From NCBI GenBank assembly GCA_024276495.1, contig JAJRXC010000078.1, positions 1 through 61,349 of the forward strand: a stretch of 61,349 nt of DNA, written 5' to 3'. This stretch comes from Actinomycetes bacterium (GTDB lineage: Bacteria; Actinomycetota; Acidimicrobiia; Acidimicrobiales; Aldehydirespiratoraceae). Shown here piece by piece: positions 16,936 through 56,564 of the stretch; position 1 is the stretch's first letter; every line of letters starts with the position of its first letter. The notes beneath the pieces are model-generated. The model saw only the letters and a list, made by a program, of their open reading frames with translations. It did not search any database and was not told the DNA's origin. The translations under genes were made by a program, and so were the position numbers.

Positions 16936-17619
16936 TCACCGGCTCGGCGGACGATCCGCGGCCAGAATCGGCTCGCGGGTGTACCACCAGTCGTCGCCGG
17001 GGATGTCGTCGACCTGGCGGAAGGTCATGCTCATCCGAGGAGCCGCGAACGCCATCTTGGGGACACAGTGCTCCCAGGCGTGCTGACAGGCGCCACCCAT
17101 CACGAGCAGGTCGCCCGATCCCAGGGTGAGGCGAAGCGAGGGGCCACCCGCCATCGGTCGCAGCCCGAAGCGTCGGGGCCCGCCGAGCGAGCAGATCGCC
17201 ACGACGGGATCGATGCGTTCGAGACCGATCCGGTCGGCGTGCCAGGCGACCGAGTCGGCGCCGTTGCGGTAGTAGTTGACGAAGTTGGCGTTGATCGGGC
17301 CGCCGTAGCGGGCCTCGAGCCAGCGAATCATCGAGTCGATCAGATCGGCCCGAACCGGATCGTGGAGGTCGAGGCTCGCGTGGAGACGGGGCTCCTCGAC
17401 CATTCGTCCGTACATGGGGCGACGCCCGACCCGCCACTCGAGCTCGTCGGCGAGTGCCTCGAGCAGCCGGTCGGCCCCGTCGAGCCAGTTGCGGCCGCCA
17501 TCGACCCAGCTCCACTCGTCGAGCGCGATGCGTTGGACGGCGGCGCCGGCGACCACAGCCGGTTCGCCCTGGGCGAAAAGGGTGGTCTGGTAGGTGCCGA
17601 GCGCCGCCATGGTCGACAT
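16936..17619 (-). CDS. AlkB-type alkylated-DNA repair dioxygenase, SOS-linked
   Basis: Fe(II)/2-oxoglutarate dioxygenase removing alkyl lesions from nucleic-acid bases. The 227-residue protein keeps the metal triad HxD (H127, D129) and distal histidine (H184 in QHAWEHCVPK), and the 2-oxoglutarate arginines (R195, R201 in PRMSMTFR). NFVNYYRNG and the GSGDLLVMGG strand match ALKBH2/3-like bacterial AlkBs. ATG 17619 is preferred (ATG 17610 also possible): a perfect LexA box sits 5 nt upstream, and the open frame to 17676 would run through it. It is probably induced by DNA damage through LexA. Confidence 0.9.
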   Translation of the reverse strand: MSTMAALGTYQTTLFAQGEPAVVAGAAVQRIALDEWSWVDGGRNWLDGADRLLEALADELEWRVGRRPMYGRMVEEPRLHASLDLHDPVRADLIDSMIRWLEARYGGPINANFVNYYRNGADSVAWHADRIGLERIDPVVAICSLGGPRRFGLRPMAGGPSLRLTLGSGDLLVMGGACQHAWEHCVPKMAFAAPRMSMTFRQVDDIPGDDWWYTREPILAADRPPSR

Positions 17620-17624
17620 GCTAC

Positions 17625-17640
17625 TCGAACAGATGTTCGA
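17625..17640. promoter_or_regulatory. LexA (SOS) box
   Basis: TCGAACAGATGTTCGA is a perfect match to the actinobacterial LexA operator TCGAAC-N4-GTTCGA. It ends 5 nt before the alkB ATG on the minus strand, where repressor would block initiation. The divergent crotonase gene begins at 17697 and has its own -10 box 45 nt away. Confidence 0.88.
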
Positions 17641-17696: not shown

Positions 17697-18464
17697 ATGA
17701 CCGTTCACCTGGAAACCGATGGCCCGGTGCTGATCGTCACCATCGATCGTCCCGAGCGCCGCAACGCCGTCGACCAGGCCACCGCGCTCGCGCTTCGTGA
17801 GGCCTTCGAGGCGTTCAACCGTGATGACGCCAGTCTCGTGGCGATCCTGACCGGCGCCGGCGGCACGTTTTGTGCCGGCGCCGACCTGAAGGCGATCGCT
17901 GCAGGTGACGGCAACCGGGTCGACATCCACGGCCCCGGGCCGATGGGCCCGACCCGACTCGACCTCGACAAGCCGGTGATCGCGGCGATCGAGGGGCACG
18001 CGGTCGCCGGCGGGATCGAGCTCGCGCTCTGGTGCGACCTCCGGGTCGCCGCCGCCGACGCGACGCTCGGAGTGTTCTGTCGGCGGTGGGGCGTCCCCTT
18101 GGTCGACGGGGGCACCATCCGCCTTCCCCGGCTGATCGGCGCCTCGAGGGCCGCCGACTTGATCCTCACCGGTCGGGCCGTGGGCGGCGAGGAAGCCCTC
18201 GCGATGGGGCTGGTCAACCGGCTCGCCGCCTCGGGCGAGGCGCTGGCCGACGCCCGAGCACTCGCCCACGAGCTCGCCGCCTTCCCGCCGCGGTGTCTGC
18301 GGTCGGATCTGCGCTCGAGCAGGGACCAATGGGATCTCGATCTCGACGCGGCCCTGACCCACGAAGCAGATCTCGGACTCGCCACGATCATCAGCGGCGA
18401 GACCCGAGAGGGCGCCGCCCGCTTCGCGGCCGGAGAGGGTCGACACGGCGCCTCGGCCGGGTGA
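17697..18464 (+). CDS. Enoyl-CoA hydratase/isomerase family protein (2)
   Basis: A 255-residue crotonase. LTGAGGTFCAGADLKAIA and AIEGHAVAGGIELALW form the oxyanion hole. In place of the usual catalytic-glutamate segment it has GVFCRRWGVPLVDGGTIRLPRL, a pattern of a crotonase subgroup whose members are often not simple hydratases. It lies divergent from alkB across 77 nt. The substrate is unknown. Confidence 0.86.
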   Translation: MTVHLETDGPVLIVTIDRPERRNAVDQATALALREAFEAFNRDDASLVAILTGAGGTFCAGADLKAIAAGDGNRVDIHGPGPMGPTRLDLDKPVIAAIEGHAVAGGIELALWCDLRVAAADATLGVFCRRWGVPLVDGGTIRLPRLIGASRAADLILTGRAVGGEEALAMGLVNRLAASGEALADARALAHELAAFPPRCLRSDLRSSRDQWDLDLDAALTHEADLGLATIISGETREGAARFAAGEGRHGASAG

Positions 18465-18494: not shown

Positions 18495-19563
18495 TCACAA
18501 CGGTGGTGGCAGCGGCCGGGAGCGCACGGTCAGGAGGCGCTGCACCGAGCGGGTGAGCGCAACATAGAGCAGGCGGAGGCCGTTGGGGAGTCCGACGATG
18601 TCGGCCGGTTCGACCACGATGGTCACGTCGAACTCGAGTCCCTTGCGGTGCGGGGGTCGACCACGGAGATCCGATGGTCGAGCGCGACCGTCCGGCGGGT
18701 GTCGCCGGCATCGAGGCGGGTCGCGAGGAGGTCGGCCAACACCGTGTCGATGTGGGCCGGCCCGGCGATGACACCGATCGTCGCCCACTCGTCTCCGAGG
18801 TCGCCGGCGAGGGCCGTCACCGCCGCCGCGAGCACGGCCGTGTCGACCTCGTGGTGCTCGGGGCCGCGGCCACGACCACGGATCGACGTGGACGGGGTGA
18901 TGTCAGGCGCGGTCACGGCCAGAAGACGGTTCGCGTAGTCGAGGATCGGCCCCGGAACCCGATAGCCGACGGTCAGCTCTCGGCGCCGGAGTCGGTCCGG
19001 CTCCACACCGAGGCCATCTCGCCGCTTCGACCCCGCTCGATCTCGGCCAGGACCGGATCGGGTACACCCGCGGCCGCGATCGACTCGGGGTCATCGAGGT
19101 GCTCGTCGAAGATCGCGATCAGCTCGTCGACCTCACAGGTGAACCGCCGGCGCAGCACGAGGCCCAACGGGTCGGCGCCCGTCGCCCGATAGAACGGAAC
19201 GGCGACGGGCGCCCGCCAGTCGACGATCACCGGGGCGCCGGATTCGTCCTCGATGTGACGGCGTCCCACGTAGAACCGTGCCCCGGAGGCGAGCGTCTCG
19301 TCCTCGTCGATGCGGCCGAAGGCGAGATTGACCGCACCGACGTCGACCGCGGCTCGTCGCCGAGCCAGGTGGGCCCGGGTGATCCTCGCGTCGGCGGAGC
19401 TCTCGTCTCGCACTCGCTGCTCGCCGAACTCGAGGGCCTGTGCGCTGCGGGCGACCATCGTGTCCAATGCCGCACGGGCGTGGTGGAGGTACGCCTGCTC
19501 CGCCGCGTGGTCCGGGTGGGTTTCGGCGGACTCGCGCCCCTCGCTGTCCGTCATGGCGGCCAA
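18495..19563 (-). pseudogene. Relic of HelR/HelD-type RNA polymerase-recycling ATPase
   Basis: The remains of a superfamily 1 helicase-like gene whose intact relatives (about 700+ residues) release stalled RNA polymerase. The first ~185 codons (frame from 19563) match the HelD N-terminal region: coiled-coil start, then RFYVGRRHIEDESG, VIVDWRAPVAVPFYRAT. It then jumps, near 19010, to a different frame that begins at late helicase sequence (RELTVGYRVPGPILDYAN). The whole Walker A/motor core is missing. A second one-base shift near 18645 separates VVDPRTA from KGLEFDVTIVVEPADIVG and LRLLYVALTRSVQRLL. A large internal deletion plus two frame changes rule out a working ATPase. Confidence 0.82.
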
Positions 19564-29252: not shown

Positions 29253-30530
29253 TCAGCGAGTCGAGGGTGCCAGTCGGTAGATGCGGGCGAGGAAGGCGGC
29301 CATCTGTTCGCGGTCGACGGTTTCGGCGGGGGAGTAGGTGGTGGCGCTGGTGCCGGTGGTGATGCCGAGTTGGTGGATGAGGGTGATGTCGTCGTACGCG
29401 AACGAAGTGGGGTCGACGTCGTCGAACGGATCGGGGGGTGCGCCGATCGGGGTCCGCAGGCCCTGGGCGGTCAGCGTTCCCGGCTCGATGAGGCGCCACA
29501 GGCGGGCGAGGAAGGCGGCCATCTGTTCGCGGTCGACGGTTTCGGCGGGGGAGTAGGTGGTGGCGCTGGTGCCGGTGGTGATGCCGAGTTGGTGGATGAG
29601 GGTGATGTCGTCGTACGCGAACGAGGTGGGGTCGACGTCGTCGAACGGATGCGCCGGCATCGTCGTGCTGGTCGTCGCCGAATCGAGTGACGTCGGTGCG
29701 ATGAGGCGCCACAGGCGGGCGAGGAAGGCGGCCATCTGTTCGCGGTCGACGGTTTCGGCGGGGGAGTAGGTGGTGGCGCTGGTACCGGTGGTGATGCCGA
29801 CATCGAACAACAGTTCGATGTCGGCGTAGGCGAACGAGTTGGGGTCGACGTCGTCGAACCGGAACGCGGCGATGGTGGTCGTCGTCGTGGAGGTGCTCGA
29901 CGTCGTACTGGTGGTCACGTCCGGGGGCGGCGCGCCGGGGCAGTTCGTGCTCGTGAACGCCTCGCCGGGGTCGATCGGCTCGCCGTCCATCGCGATCTTG
30001 ATCTGGTTGGCGGCAGGGAGCAGGTAGGCGCGGGCGTCGTCGTAGTCGCGACTGTCGAAGTACTCGAGGTGAAGGTGGGCGATGGTCGCGTTGCCGGAGT
30101 CGCCGACGACGCCGAACTGTTGCCCCTCGGTGACCGTGGCGCCCACGACTACGCCGTCCGGCACGGAGCCGTCGACGAGGTGGAGATAGCGCACGGTGAT
30201 CTCGCCGTAGTCGATCTCGACATAGGTGCCGGCGGCGACATGCCAGCCGATCCAGACGACGGTGCCGGTGGCCTGGGCGAGCAGGGGCTGGCCCAGGTCG
30301 TGGAGAGGATCGCTGAAGAGACGGTCCGTGCGATTGATGTCGAGGTTCCAGTCGTTGAGTCCGTGTCCGGCGCGGGTGACGCCGGCCCACTCGGTGCCGC
30401 ACGCGAACGGCGCCCGCAGTGTTTGCGACGGCGGCGCGTCGGCAGCCGCCTGTTCGGCGAGACCGAGGCTGACCGCGAGCGCGAGCAGGGCGCCGAGAAC
30501 GGTCCGGAGTTTGAGATGCGGAAGCGACAT
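29253..30530 (-). CDS. Secreted M23-type peptidase with three SLH repeats
   Basis: 425 residues. A signal peptide (LRTVLGALLALAVSLGLAEQAAA) is cleaved near ADA. The M23/LytM-like domain about 50-200 has HGLNDWNLDINR, ATGTVVWIGW, GEITVRYLHL and AHLHLEYF. A Thr/Ser linker follows, then three S-layer-homology modules, each of the type FDDVDPTSFAY...GITTGTSATTYSPAETVDREQMAAFLAR. The first zinc-site segment fits only loosely (HxxxD with no second HxH upstream), so activity is unsure. SLH modules probably tether the protein to a cell-wall polymer. ATG 30530 follows GGAAGGG. Confidence 0.85.
   Translation of the reverse strand: MSLPHLKLRTVLGALLALAVSLGLAEQAAADAPPSQTLRAPFACGTEWAGVTRAGHGLNDWNLDINRTDRLFSDPLHDLGQPLLAQATGTVVWIGWHVAAGTYVEIDYGEITVRYLHLVDGSVPDGVVVGATVTEGQQFGVVGDSGNATIAHLHLEYFDSRDYDDARAYLLPAANQIKIAMDGEPIDPGEAFTSTNCPGAPPPDVTTSTTSSTSTTTTTIAAFRFDDVDPNSFAYADIELLFDVGITTGTSATTYSPAETVDREQMAAFLARLWRLIAPTSLDSATTSTTMPAHPFDDVDPTSFAYDDITLIHQLGITTGTSATTYSPAETVDREQMAAFLARLWRLIEPGTLTAQGLRTPIGAPPDPFDDVDPTSFAYDDITLIHQLGITTGTSATTYSPAETVDREQMAAFLARIYRLAPSTR
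29283..29430. repeat. SLH-coding direct repeat, copy 1
   Basis: A 148-nt unit that matches 29502-29649 with a single visible mismatch (GAAGTGG against GAGGTGG). It encodes the last SLH module. Confidence 0.9.
29502..29649. repeat. SLH-coding direct repeat, copy 2
   Basis: A 148-nt unit 219 nt from copy 1. Near identity at third positions shows recent duplication or gene conversion. Confidence 0.9.
29715..29862. repeat. SLH-coding direct repeat, copy 3 (partly diverged)
   Basis: Its first ~85 nt match copies 1 and 2 with one mismatch; the middle third differs and the end converges again (GGGGTCGACGTCGTCGAAC). It is the oldest or the least converted module. Confidence 0.85.
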
Positions 30531-30960
30531 GTCGACCCTTCCGCCCGCAGCGCCGGTCACCGTAGCGCCAATCCGTCACCGCGCGCCATCGCGTGGCCGC
30601 GATCCGTGGCAACCTTGCCGGTGATGACCCATCGTCTCATTCACCCATCGTCGGATCGATCGTCGCTCGACCTGAGTCGGAGTGGCCCATGACCACGCCG
30701 CGGATTCGGCCGCCCTACGCCGGCTTTCTCGTGGCGCTCGTGGCAACCCTGATGCTGGCCGTGTGGATCATCCTCCTGCGGGCAACATAACGGCGCCGGC
30801 CCCCGGGTCGATCACTTTCGCCCGATCGCTTCGTCCGATCTCCTTCGTGCTTACTTTACATAACGATGATTTCCGGCGGTTCGTGCCGTTCCGGGTGGTT
30901 TCGGCCCGGTCCTCGCCGACGCGTGTGCGTTCGGGACGGTGAATGGTCTAGAACCGTGCC
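30531..30960. other. Intergenic region with a possible small gene
   Basis: 430 nt between the divergent M23 and amidohydrolase genes. It holds TACGGT (minus strand, 30559-30564) as a candidate -10 for the M23 gene, a 33-residue membrane-helix frame (30689-30790), and a locally AT-rich patch around 30846-30875 (CTTACTTTACATAACGATGATTT). TAGAAC at 30949-30954 is the -10 for the amidohydrolase gene. I see no RNA gene in it. Confidence 0.5.
30689..30790 (+). CDS. Possible 33-residue single-helix membrane protein
   Basis: MTTPRIRPPYAG leads into a hydrophobic helix (FLVALVATLMLAVWIILL) and ends RAT. It has an ATG start and a proper stop. No clear ribosome site is present. Membrane character of such a short frame is the only support. 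Confidence 0.35.
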   Translation: MTTPRIRPPYAGFLVALVATLMLAVWIILLRAT

Positions 30961-53307: not shown

Positions 53308-54306
53308 TCACTGTCGGTAGCGCGACAGGATCCGGTCGGCCGCCTCGGAGACGAGATCGGGGCTGAGCGGCTCGTCGGCCGCCACGATCTCCGCGGTCGG
53401 GCCGAGGCGGAGCAGGAGCCGTTCGAGCCACGGAACGGCGGTCACCGCCATCGTGACCGCCAAGGTGCCGTCGTCGCGGATCTCCGTCGACTCGGTCGGA
53501 TACTGCTCGACCACCCATGCCGCGTCGGCCGGGAGGCGCAGCTCGACCCGAGGGTCGTCGCCGTCGGCGGCGAACGCGACGCCGCCGCCGGCCAACTCGT
53601 GTTCGACCGGTTCGCCCGTCGAACGGACCTCTCGGATCCGGTCGACGCGAAACACGCGCTCCGCCCCGGCCCGGTGACACCAGCCGTGGAGGTACCAGTG
53701 GCCGTGATCGCTGAACACCCGGGCCGGGTCGATCGTCCTCGTCGTCAGCTCGTCGCGGCCGTAGGTGTAGTAGGCGAGCTCGACCTGGGTCCGGTCGGCC
53801 ACCGCGGTCCGCAACGTCTGCAGGGTGGCTTCCGGTGCGTCACCGAGGCGAACCTCGACCGCGTGGTCGGCGCCGTCACCGAGCGCCATGCCCAGCTTCG
53901 TGAGGGCCCGCAGCAACGGGCCGGCCGCATCGCGGCCGTCGTCGATCTCTGCGTCGGTCGGGTGGTCGCTGATCGTGTCGGAGTCGCTGAGCGACAAGAC
54001 CGAACGCCCCGCGGTCAACAGCCGGGCGCCTTCCTCGGGGGTGAGCCGGAGAGGCCGGGAGAACCAGTCGGCGTAGTGGATCTGGACACGATCATCGGTG
54101 ATGTCGACCTCGATCAACGAATCGGGCGTGAAAGGGTGCACCCCGACGAACAAGACGACCTCGGTCAGGTCGGCGACGAGCTGGGATCGGGGGTAGTCGA
54201 ACCGGCGGGCGATCTCGTCGATCGGTGCGCCGCCGCGTTCGACCACCCAGGGGATCACCGCGAGCAACCGGGCCATCCTCTGCGGGGCGGTCAGTCGCGG
54301 GTTCAT
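53308..54306 (-). CDS. pafC: WYL-domain DNA-damage regulator PafC
   Basis: 332 residues: N-terminal helix-turn-helix (APIDEIARRFDYPRSQLVADL), a WYL domain (VELAYYTYGRDELTTRTIDPARVFSDHGHWYLHGWCH) and a WYL C-terminal extension. In mycobacteria PafB and PafC pair to activate LexA-independent DNA-damage genes. Coupled to pafB by ATGA. Confidence 0.9.
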   Translation of the reverse strand: MNPRLTAPQRMARLLAVIPWVVERGGAPIDEIARRFDYPRSQLVADLTEVVLFVGVHPFTPDSLIEVDITDDRVQIHYADWFSRPLRLTPEEGARLLTAGRSVLSLSDSDTISDHPTDAEIDDGRDAAGPLLRALTKLGMALGDGADHAVEVRLGDAPEATLQTLRTAVADRTQVELAYYTYGRDELTTRTIDPARVFSDHGHWYLHGWCHRAGAERVFRVDRIREVRSTGEPVEHELAGGGVAFAADGDDPRVELRLPADAAWVVEQYPTESTEIRDDGTLAVTMAVTAVPWLERLLLRLGPTAEIVAADEPLSPDLVSEAADRILSRYRQ

Positions 54307-55193
54307 CGAAACGACTCCAGCCACTCGATCATCGAGTCGCGCAACTCCGGCGGTTCGAGGATCTCCGCATGGTCGAGGAAGCTGAGCACGAACGAGCGAA
54401 ACGCCTCGCGGTTGCGCACCTCGAGCTCGGCCACCACTCCCCCGTCGGGCGCCTCGACGACATCGCCGAGAAGGTGTCGGGCATGAGCGGCCTGCACGGC
54501 GTCGATGGCCACCCGGGCCACGAGCGGGTCGCCGTCGCCGAGTTGCCAACCGCGCAGGTCGACGGGATCGCTCACCGAGCCGATCTCGTGGATCGCGGCG
54601 TCGCCCGGCTCGACCGTGCCGGAGATGCGGTCGACGCGGTAGAGGCGCCCGTCGTCGCGGGTTCGGTCCCAGCCGGCGAGGTACCAGTGGCCGCGGGAGA
54701 ACGACAGACGCCACGGCTCGACGGTGCGCCGCGTCTCTTTGTAGGTGAACGTGACGGCCCGACGGTCGGCGGCCGCGGCGATCAGCACCGCGAGGGCGTC
54801 GTCGAACGGGACCCGACCGACCTCGTCGGCGTGATCGCCGGCTCGGCCGCCCAGCTTCAGCAGCCCGGAGTCGTCGCCGTCGAGTCGCACGAGGTTGGTC
54901 GCGAGATGCAGGGCTGCGAGCTCGTCGGGTTCGAGCCGGAGCTCGGTTCCCGAGTAGTCGGACCGGCGCATTCGGTAGCCGTCGATCGGGGGGTCGGTGC
55001 CGGCGACCGGCTCGACCCGGATGGGAAGCCCCATGGCCCGCAGGTCGTCCTTGTCGCGTTCGAACGAACGGCGAAAGGCCGCCTTGGCGTCGGGGTAACC
55101 ACCGACTCGGTCGCGCAGCTCGTCGGCGGTCAGCGCCCGCTCGGCGTCGAGCAGGGCGGCGGCGAGGTTGAGGAGGCGTTCGAGCTTTTCCAT
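54303..55193 (-). CDS. pafB: WYL-domain DNA-damage regulator PafB
   Basis: 296 residues with the same order: helix-turn-helix (LTADELRDRVGGYPDAKAAFRRSFERDKDDL), WYL core (AVTFTYKETRRTVEPWRLSFSRGHWYLAGWDR) and C-terminal extension. The start overlaps the pafA stop by one base (TGATG). The pair is functional only together in mycobacteria. Confidence 0.9.
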   Translation of the reverse strand: MEKLERLLNLAAALLDAERALTADELRDRVGGYPDAKAAFRRSFERDKDDLRAMGLPIRVEPVAGTDPPIDGYRMRRSDYSGTELRLEPDELAALHLATNLVRLDGDDSGLLKLGGRAGDHADEVGRVPFDDALAVLIAAAADRRAVTFTYKETRRTVEPWRLSFSRGHWYLAGWDRTRDDGRLYRVDRISGTVEPGDAAIHEIGSVSDPVDLRGWQLGDGDPLVARVAIDAVQAAHARHLLGDVVEAPDGGVVAELEVRNREAFRSFVLSFLDHAEILEPPELRDSMIEWLESFR

Positions 55194-56551
55194 CAGAGGC
55201 TGGCGATGAGCTTTTCCACACGTTCGTCGTGGGCCTTGAACGGGTCCTTGCACAGCACCGTGCGCTGGGCCTGGTCGTTGAGCTTCAGGTGGACCCAGTC
55301 GACGGTGTAGTCACGCTTTTGTTCCTTGGCCCGACGGATGAACTCACCCCGCAGGCGAGCACGAGTCGTCTGCGGTGGGTTCTCCACGGCGTGGGAGATC
55401 TCCTCGTCGGTGACCATCCTCTCGACCATTCCCCGCTTCTGCATCCGGTAGAACAGGCCACGATCGCGGTTGACGTCGTGATATTGCAGATCGACGAGGG
55501 CGACCCTCGCGTCGCTCAGCTCGAGGCCGTGGCGTTCCCGGTAGCTCTCCATGAGCCGGTACTTGATCACCCAGTCGATCTCGCGATCGAGCTTCATCGG
55601 ATCGTTGGCCAGGGCGGTCAGGCAGTGTTCCCACATCTCGAGGGCGAGTTGCTCCTGCTCGGTCAGATCGTGGTGTTCGGCGAAGCGCAATGCCCGGCCC
55701 AGGTACTCGCCTTGGATGTCGAGGGCCGAAACCTCTCTCCCGTTGGCGAGCCGGACCCGTCGGGTGCAGGTCATGTCGTGACTGATCTCGCGAATCGCCC
55801 GAATCGGGTTCTCCAGGGTCATGTCGCGCAGCACGACCTGGGGTTCCTCGAGCATCCGCAGCATCAGGGCACACGCCCCGACCTTCAAGAAGTTGGTGTA
55901 CTCGCTCATGTTGGAGTCGCCCACGATCACGTGGAGTCGTCGGTACCGTTCGGCGTCGGCGTGGGGCTCGTCGCGGGTGTTGATGATCGGCCGGGAGCGG
56001 GTCGTCGCGGAGGAGACGCCCTCCCAGATGTGTTCGGCCCGCTGGCTCACGCAGTACATCGCGCCCCGCGCGGTCTGGAGCACCTTCCCGGCGCCCGCGT
56101 AGATCTGACGACTGACGAGAAACGGGATCAGCACCTCGCTGTAGGAGCTGAACTCGTCGCGGCGGGTGGTGCAGTAGTTCTCGTGACAGCCGTAGCTGTT
56201 GCCGGCCGAGTCGGTGTTGTTCTTGAACAGGTAGATGTCGCCGTGGATTCCCTCGTCGCCGAGGCGTTCCTCCGCGCTGGTCAGCAACTGCTCGAGGATG
56301 CGTTCGCCGGCCTTGTCGTGCACGACGAGGTCGTGGACGCTGTCGCACTCCGGGGTGGCGTACTCGGGGTGGCTGCCGACATCGAGATAGAGCCGGGCGC
56401 CGTTGCCGAGAAAGACGTTGCTGGAACGGCCCCATGACACGACCCGACGAAACAGGTAGCGGGCGACCTCGTCGGGACTCAGGCGCCGCTGGCCGCGCAG
56501 TGTGCAGGTGACTCCGTACTCATTTTCGATTCCGAAGATCCGACGCTGCAC
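55193..56551 (-). CDS. pafA: Pup-protein ligase
   Basis: Attaches deamidated Pup to target lysines using ATP. 452 residues of carboxylate-amine ligase fold: [11 protein letters not shown], catalytic aspartate in [65 protein letters not shown] 56551 ([13 protein letters not shown]) is favoured because TAGGTT lies 7 nt upstream; TTG 56560 would add three residues. It probably has its own leaderless promoter just behind prcA. Confidence 0.95.
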
Positions 56552-56558
56552 GTCGCAC

Positions 56559-56564
56559 AACCTA
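56559..56564 (-). promoter_or_regulatory. -10 hexamer of pafABC
   Basis: TAGGTT on the minus strand, 7 nt before GTG 56551, in the 21-nt gap after prcA. Confidence 0.55.

Follow-up and report, generated by a model that had tools for sequence, protein, structure and literature searches.

A predicted LexA operator at the alkB promoter of an Aldehydirespiratoraceae bacterium and of many of its relatives in the Actinomycetota

In E. coli alkB is part of the Ada regulon and sits in the ada operon. Is the alkB gene of the Aldehydirespiratoraceae bacterium studied here, which follows a palindrome of the LexA type, placed under the SOS repressor instead? The gene occupies 16936-17610 on the minus strand of a 61,349-nucleotide stretch of DNA, which was analysed as a whole and is called the window below. 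It encodes a predicted Fe(II)/2-oxoglutarate dioxygenase of 224 aa. A first-pass annotation made from the letters of the window had named it alkB, and the family name is right: the product matches Pfam 2OG-FeII_Oxy_2 (PF13532, E 5.5e-19), and among proteins of solved structure human ALKBH3 and ALKBH2 are the closest to it in sequence. The H-x-D...H and R-x5-R active-site motif of the AlkB Fe(II)/2-oxoglutarate DNA dioxygenases is present, and the metal and cofactor residues H124-x-D126, H181, R192 and R198 (numbered in the 224-aa form) align with those of ALKBH3. An NCBIfam scan of the product returned no family at E 0.001.

The palindrome and the LexA of the host

The first-pass annotation had also reported a perfect LexA box before alkB. 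The exact 16-mer TCGAACAGATGTTCGA was located at 17625-17640 on the minus strand and has no mismatch to the palindrome TCGAAC-N4-GTTCGA; from this match and from its presence at the alkB genes of relatives it is predicted to be a LexA operator (SOS box). The same 16-mer occurs at four places in the 4.33-Mb genome (111 contigs), against none for the reversed control. Three of the four lie at gene starts, those of alkB, of a UvrD-type helicase and of a DUF222 gene. The fourth, at 29803-29818 of the window, sits within a coding frame (29253-30560, minus strand) and was ruled out as a genuine operator for that reason. This frame contains repeated segments, and its 16-mer is probably there by chance. 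Loose look-alikes are common, with 108 sites of up to three mismatches in the window (49.8 expected from shuffles) and 1089 sites of up to two mismatches in the genome (135 for the reversed control). The sequence match by itself is therefore no proof; that comes from the comparison with relatives.

The absence of LexA from the genome had been named as a finding that would count against the proposal. A LexA-family repressor is encoded, scoring 218 bits against the cut-off of 110.95 for the equivalog TIGR00498, and solved LexA structures are among its relatives. Boxes of the same type lie upstream of both lexA and recA. In front of lexA the CGAACRNNYGTTCG core occurs twice without mismatch, together with two looser sites; at three mismatches this locus holds seven sites where 2.5 are expected, a number reached by 6 of 200 shuffles. 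The exact inner box of recA is located about 150 nt upstream.

A scan of the genome with the LexA motif, which had been proposed as a check, gave a coherent set of SOS genes at the tight sites. The tight inner form CGAACANNTGTTCG is found at 16 places (control, 0), one of them inside a YidC-like frame and the other 15 at genes or no more than about 160 nt upstream of them. These genes are uvrA, dnaE2, an ImuA-like gene, a Y-family polymerase, a UvrD helicase, recA, lexA, alkB and seven DUF222-type genes; the names come from Pfam where scanned and otherwise from reading the translations, and the ImuA-like gene has no Pfam match. The wider form CGAACRNNYGTTCG has 27 occurrences in the genome (control, 0). 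The 11 sites that it adds are a further box at lexA, one at another UvrD helicase, one at an eighth DUF222-type gene, two at a gene for an exonuclease with a UvrC-like portion, three near gyrB/parE-, gyrA/parC- and mraZ-like genes, one at an unnamed small frame (L193) and two inside frames (L063, L065). Since the host LexA is a clear member of its family, boxes precede lexA and SOS genes stand at the tight sites, this motif very probably belongs to the LexA of the host itself.

We note that LexA boxes accompany eight DUF222-type genes, lying either at the start or upstream of it (L018, L019, L023, L024, L029, L030, L031 and L062). Pfam confirms DUF222 in L018 and DUF222 with HNH in L029; the other six were assigned by reading the translation. 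The sites near the gyrB/parE-like (L189), gyrA/parC-like (L188) and mraZ-like (L190) genes are of the LexA type, and the starts of these genes are provisional.

The box at alkB genes of relatives

Searches for alkB homologues were positive in 34 of 51 genomes at family level, in 103 of 198 at order level and in 102 of 396 at phylum level, and these sets overlap. The comparison covered 207 alkB genes with at least 120 nt of upstream DNA, 172 of them closer and 35 more distant homologues; the line between the two follows the search score, was drawn by hand at the border and was set after the results were known. Dropped before these counts were L059 and L151 (too little upstream DNA), L061 (identical with L186, a gene recovered by the search in fragments) and, as duplicate genes, L205, L210, L212 and L264-L280. 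L195, which duplicates the locus of the window, stands outside all counts. Homologues outside the sample are mainly low-scoring or partial matches and further members of families already sampled.

The search for the box used CGAACRNNYGTTCG and covered positions from about -160 to about +40 relative to the estimated start. The box is present exactly at 84 of the 172 closer homologues and with at most one mismatch at 122. None of the 35 more distant homologues has it at this tolerance, and one carries a site with two mismatches. Eighteen genomes hold both kinds of alkB; the box is found at the closer copy in 14 and at the distant copy in none. When 179 permuted palindromes were used as a control none reached 122, and their median was 0; the highest counts (95, 95 and, third, 41) all belong to near-variants of the motif. 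The sites are also concentrated at alkB, with 125 in 34,773 positions around alkB starts against 14 in 342,977 positions elsewhere in the same loci, a set in which one gene was counted twice. The predicted operator lies at the promoter position of alkB and is kept with alkB in the family, the order and the phylum.

At one mismatch the box is missing from 50 of the 172 closer homologues, and 13 of the 48 families lack it in every closer homologue sampled, with two-mismatch sites in some of them. In these genes and families LexA control may have been lost or weakened, or may act through another motif. Among the homologues compared, the link between the predicted box and alkB is common, not universal.

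A quick tree of alkB (LG+G4, SH-aLRT support only, with long-branch warnings) supports the line between closer and distant homologues in part. Absent from it are the short sequences L266, L272 and L281 as well as L102-L186, L059, L061, L076, L205, L210 and L212. Seventeen distant copies fall into two well-supported groups of 13 and 4, both boxless. Some of the closer groups are boxless too, and the nearest relatives of the 13-member distant group have the box. The box labels change 15 times on the tree, compared with a mean of 43.1 after shuffling, which suggests several gains or losses of the box.

Promoter layout and start codon

A candidate -10 hexamer, TAGCAT (17618-17623, minus strand), begins one base past the operator, so that the order on the minus strand is box, G, TAGCAT, 7 nt and the ATG at 17608-17610. 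The first-pass annotation had put the box 5 nt before the alkB ATG. This distance holds for the upstream ATG at 17617-17619 on the minus strand, which overlaps the -10 and is probably not the start; in congeneric relatives the protein starts with the ATG equivalent to 17610 (MAALGTYQ or MAVLGTYQ), 14 nt from the box. As the ATG at 17619 falls in the -10 hexamer, the start chosen earlier is probably three codons too early.

The assignment of the -10 relies on the position of TANNNT in the box-bearing alkB loci, counted here as 121 rather than 122 because L134 lacked an anchor at that point. The first TANNNT follows the box after 0-1 nt in 68 loci, 4-7 nt in 9 and 8-9 nt in 24, and 20 loci have none within 13 nt. 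At offsets 0-4 the hexamer is seen in 70 of the 121 loci, against 107 of 24,200 random upstream positions. In the 101 loci with a TANNNT the first ATG or GTG after it is 6 nt away in 52 and 7 nt away in 23, together 75 of the 101. A start codon 6-7 nt past the -10 suggests a leaderless mRNA in actinobacterial promoters. The succession of box, -10 and, 6-7 nt on, start codon makes the ATG at 17610 the probable start of alkB, with an mRNA that is probably leaderless and begins at or near this ATG.

The same layout of box, -10 and start is observed in the host at dnaE2, at the Y-family polymerase and at four DUF222-type genes (L024, L029, L030 and L062); it is absent at the host lexA, recA and uvrA. 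It offers a simple means of spotting SOS genes and of correcting start codons.

Regulation of alkB and competing explanations

The lexA gene with its own boxes, the SOS gene set and the conservation make a strong comparative case for LexA control of this alkB and support the earlier proposal of alkylation repair under LexA. With a probability of roughly 90%, we read alkB as a LexA-repressed SOS gene with a damage-induced leaderless mRNA. In the undamaged cell a LexA dimer would sit on the box, one base from the -10, and RNA polymerase could not open the promoter. DNA damage would yield single-stranded DNA, on which RecA filaments would trigger the self-cleavage of LexA and so free the box. A leaderless alkB mRNA would then be made from at or near the ATG at 17610, and AlkB would remove lesions of the N1-methyladenine and N3-methylcytosine type by oxidation. 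We infer LexA binding, repression, induction, the transcription start and the enzyme activity of AlkB in this host from the sequence comparisons.

A chance match would be conceivable in DNA this rich in GC and TCGA; loose matches are about twice as frequent in the window as the shuffles predict, and one perfect copy lies inside a coding frame. The box is, however, kept at one place before diverged alkB genes while its inner four and outer bases vary, and it is denser at alkB starts than elsewhere in the relatives' loci, which leaves chance with hardly any probability. A different question is which gene the operator serves. The divergent neighbour of alkB is an enoyl-CoA hydratase gene (17697-18464, plus strand; Pfam ECH_1) that begins 56 bases past the box, so a shared divergent operator is possible, and all eight loci with a hydratase neighbour also have the box. 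These eight come from 74 alkB loci with at least 1200 nt upstream. The hydratase is absent from most relatives' loci, and the box is kept in 44 of the 66 that lack it; the spacing of the -10 and start codon likewise points to alkB. That the operator mainly serves the hydratase, with alkB nearby by accident, is therefore very improbable, and by these comparisons the predicted box belongs to alkB, not to the hydratase.

An arrangement in which PafBC or Ada mainly drives alkB, with LexA as a minor or redundant layer, is improbable, if slightly less so than the hydratase alternative. The PafB and PafC genes are encoded in the window as the first-pass annotation had said, at 54306-55193 and 53311-54312 respectively, and the genome codes for an Ada-type protein at another place. 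The PafBC-type promoter motif is TTGTCRGTG-N8-TANNNT. It does not occur within two mismatches at this alkB, and a PafBC promoter was rejected here on that ground; among the 172 alkB loci it appears in three, at two mismatches and never closer. The Ada-type protein corresponds to the one Ada_Zn_binding match in the genome, on contig C73, whereas alkB lies on C68; the two genes are thus not seen side by side or in one operon. The enzyme type is shared with the Ada-regulon alkB of E. coli, but there the gene is in the ada operon and here the two are on separate contigs. Ada-type proteins are encoded in 29 of the 51 family genomes. In the 4 kb around the host Ada gene no LexA-like site has fewer than three mismatches (the best has three), and around the Ada genes of eight relatives the best sites have two or three. 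A Caulobacter alkB-like gene is induced specifically by methylation damage (PMC10957082), which speaks for this alternative. We also note that PafC, PafB and the Pup ligase PafA follow one another in a row at 53311-56560.

LexA control of alkB, our preferred reading, is already known from Streptomyces venezuelae and has been reported for Mycobacterium tuberculosis; the present locus is a well-supported further instance, and the surprise implied by the first-pass annotation is removed by these precedents (PMC9380542; PMC8151990, PMC7911356). The S. venezuelae alkB (vnz_32390) is a direct LexA target, with a ChIP-seq peak, a box marked as SPR-validated and 11-fold induction by mitomycin C (PMC9380542). 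The putative M. tuberculosis AlkB Rv1000c is counted among the SOS-box genes (PMC8151990, PMC7911356); Rv1000c is up 8-fold with moxifloxacin (PMC7911356), and alkB is in the RecA-dependent mitomycin C set (PMC8151990). The latter source also gives alkB as still responsive to mitomycin C in a RecA-lacking strain with PafBC knocked down, and its control may be mixed. The likeness to our gene is one of description, an AlkB counted with SOS genes. For E. coli, LexA sites inside alkB and ada have been predicted by motif (PMC4576408).

GGTTACGCTGGATC, the published S. venezuelae box, fits the motif poorly, whereas the box here is perfect and abuts the -10. A search of 295 genomes from a Streptomyces-like genus (a label based on genome size and on the published 14-mer) found this 14-mer in 5. 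Three of the five copies are at alkB (L286, L288 and L289), where they cover TACGCT just before the start codon; the other two have no alkB beside them, and one of these again ends directly before an ATG. Two of the three alkB loci have a degenerate palindrome upstream of TACGCT, at a distance of 8-9 nt; the third has just a weak one. Among 17 further alkB loci of the Streptomyces-like family, 11 have GAAC-N5-TTCGA 8-10 nt before the hexamer. In these genomes GGTTACGCTGGATC begins at -15, and PMC9380542 gives -20. Given this difference and the SPR validation in that source, the register of the Streptomyces box is raised as a question, not as a correction.

A broader reading seems to us somewhat better than even. 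SOS control would be an old and lasting state of one AlkB group throughout the Actinomycetota, with the operator fused to a leaderless core promoter and moving with the group. A more distant second type of AlkB in the same genomes would be without the operator, and the copies would divide alkylation repair into a damage-induced and an otherwise controlled part. In Streptomyces the operator would have decayed, and the published site may correspond to the -10 region. Our literature search, which ran without most subscription papers, returned no phylum-wide survey of LexA boxes before alkB genes, and neither the split between alkB paralogues nor the fused operator and leaderless promoter was found in it. 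The assignment of alkB to the adaptive response, which holds in E. coli, appears not to apply in this host and in many related bacteria, where alkylation reversal seems to be tied to general DNA damage through LexA. Two AlkB types within one genome make a natural pair for a study of why SOS is linked to one and not to the other.

The stretch 18623-19563 holds two minus-strand frames that have no Pfam match at 1e-5 and resemble pieces of a broken HelD/UvrD-like helicase gene.
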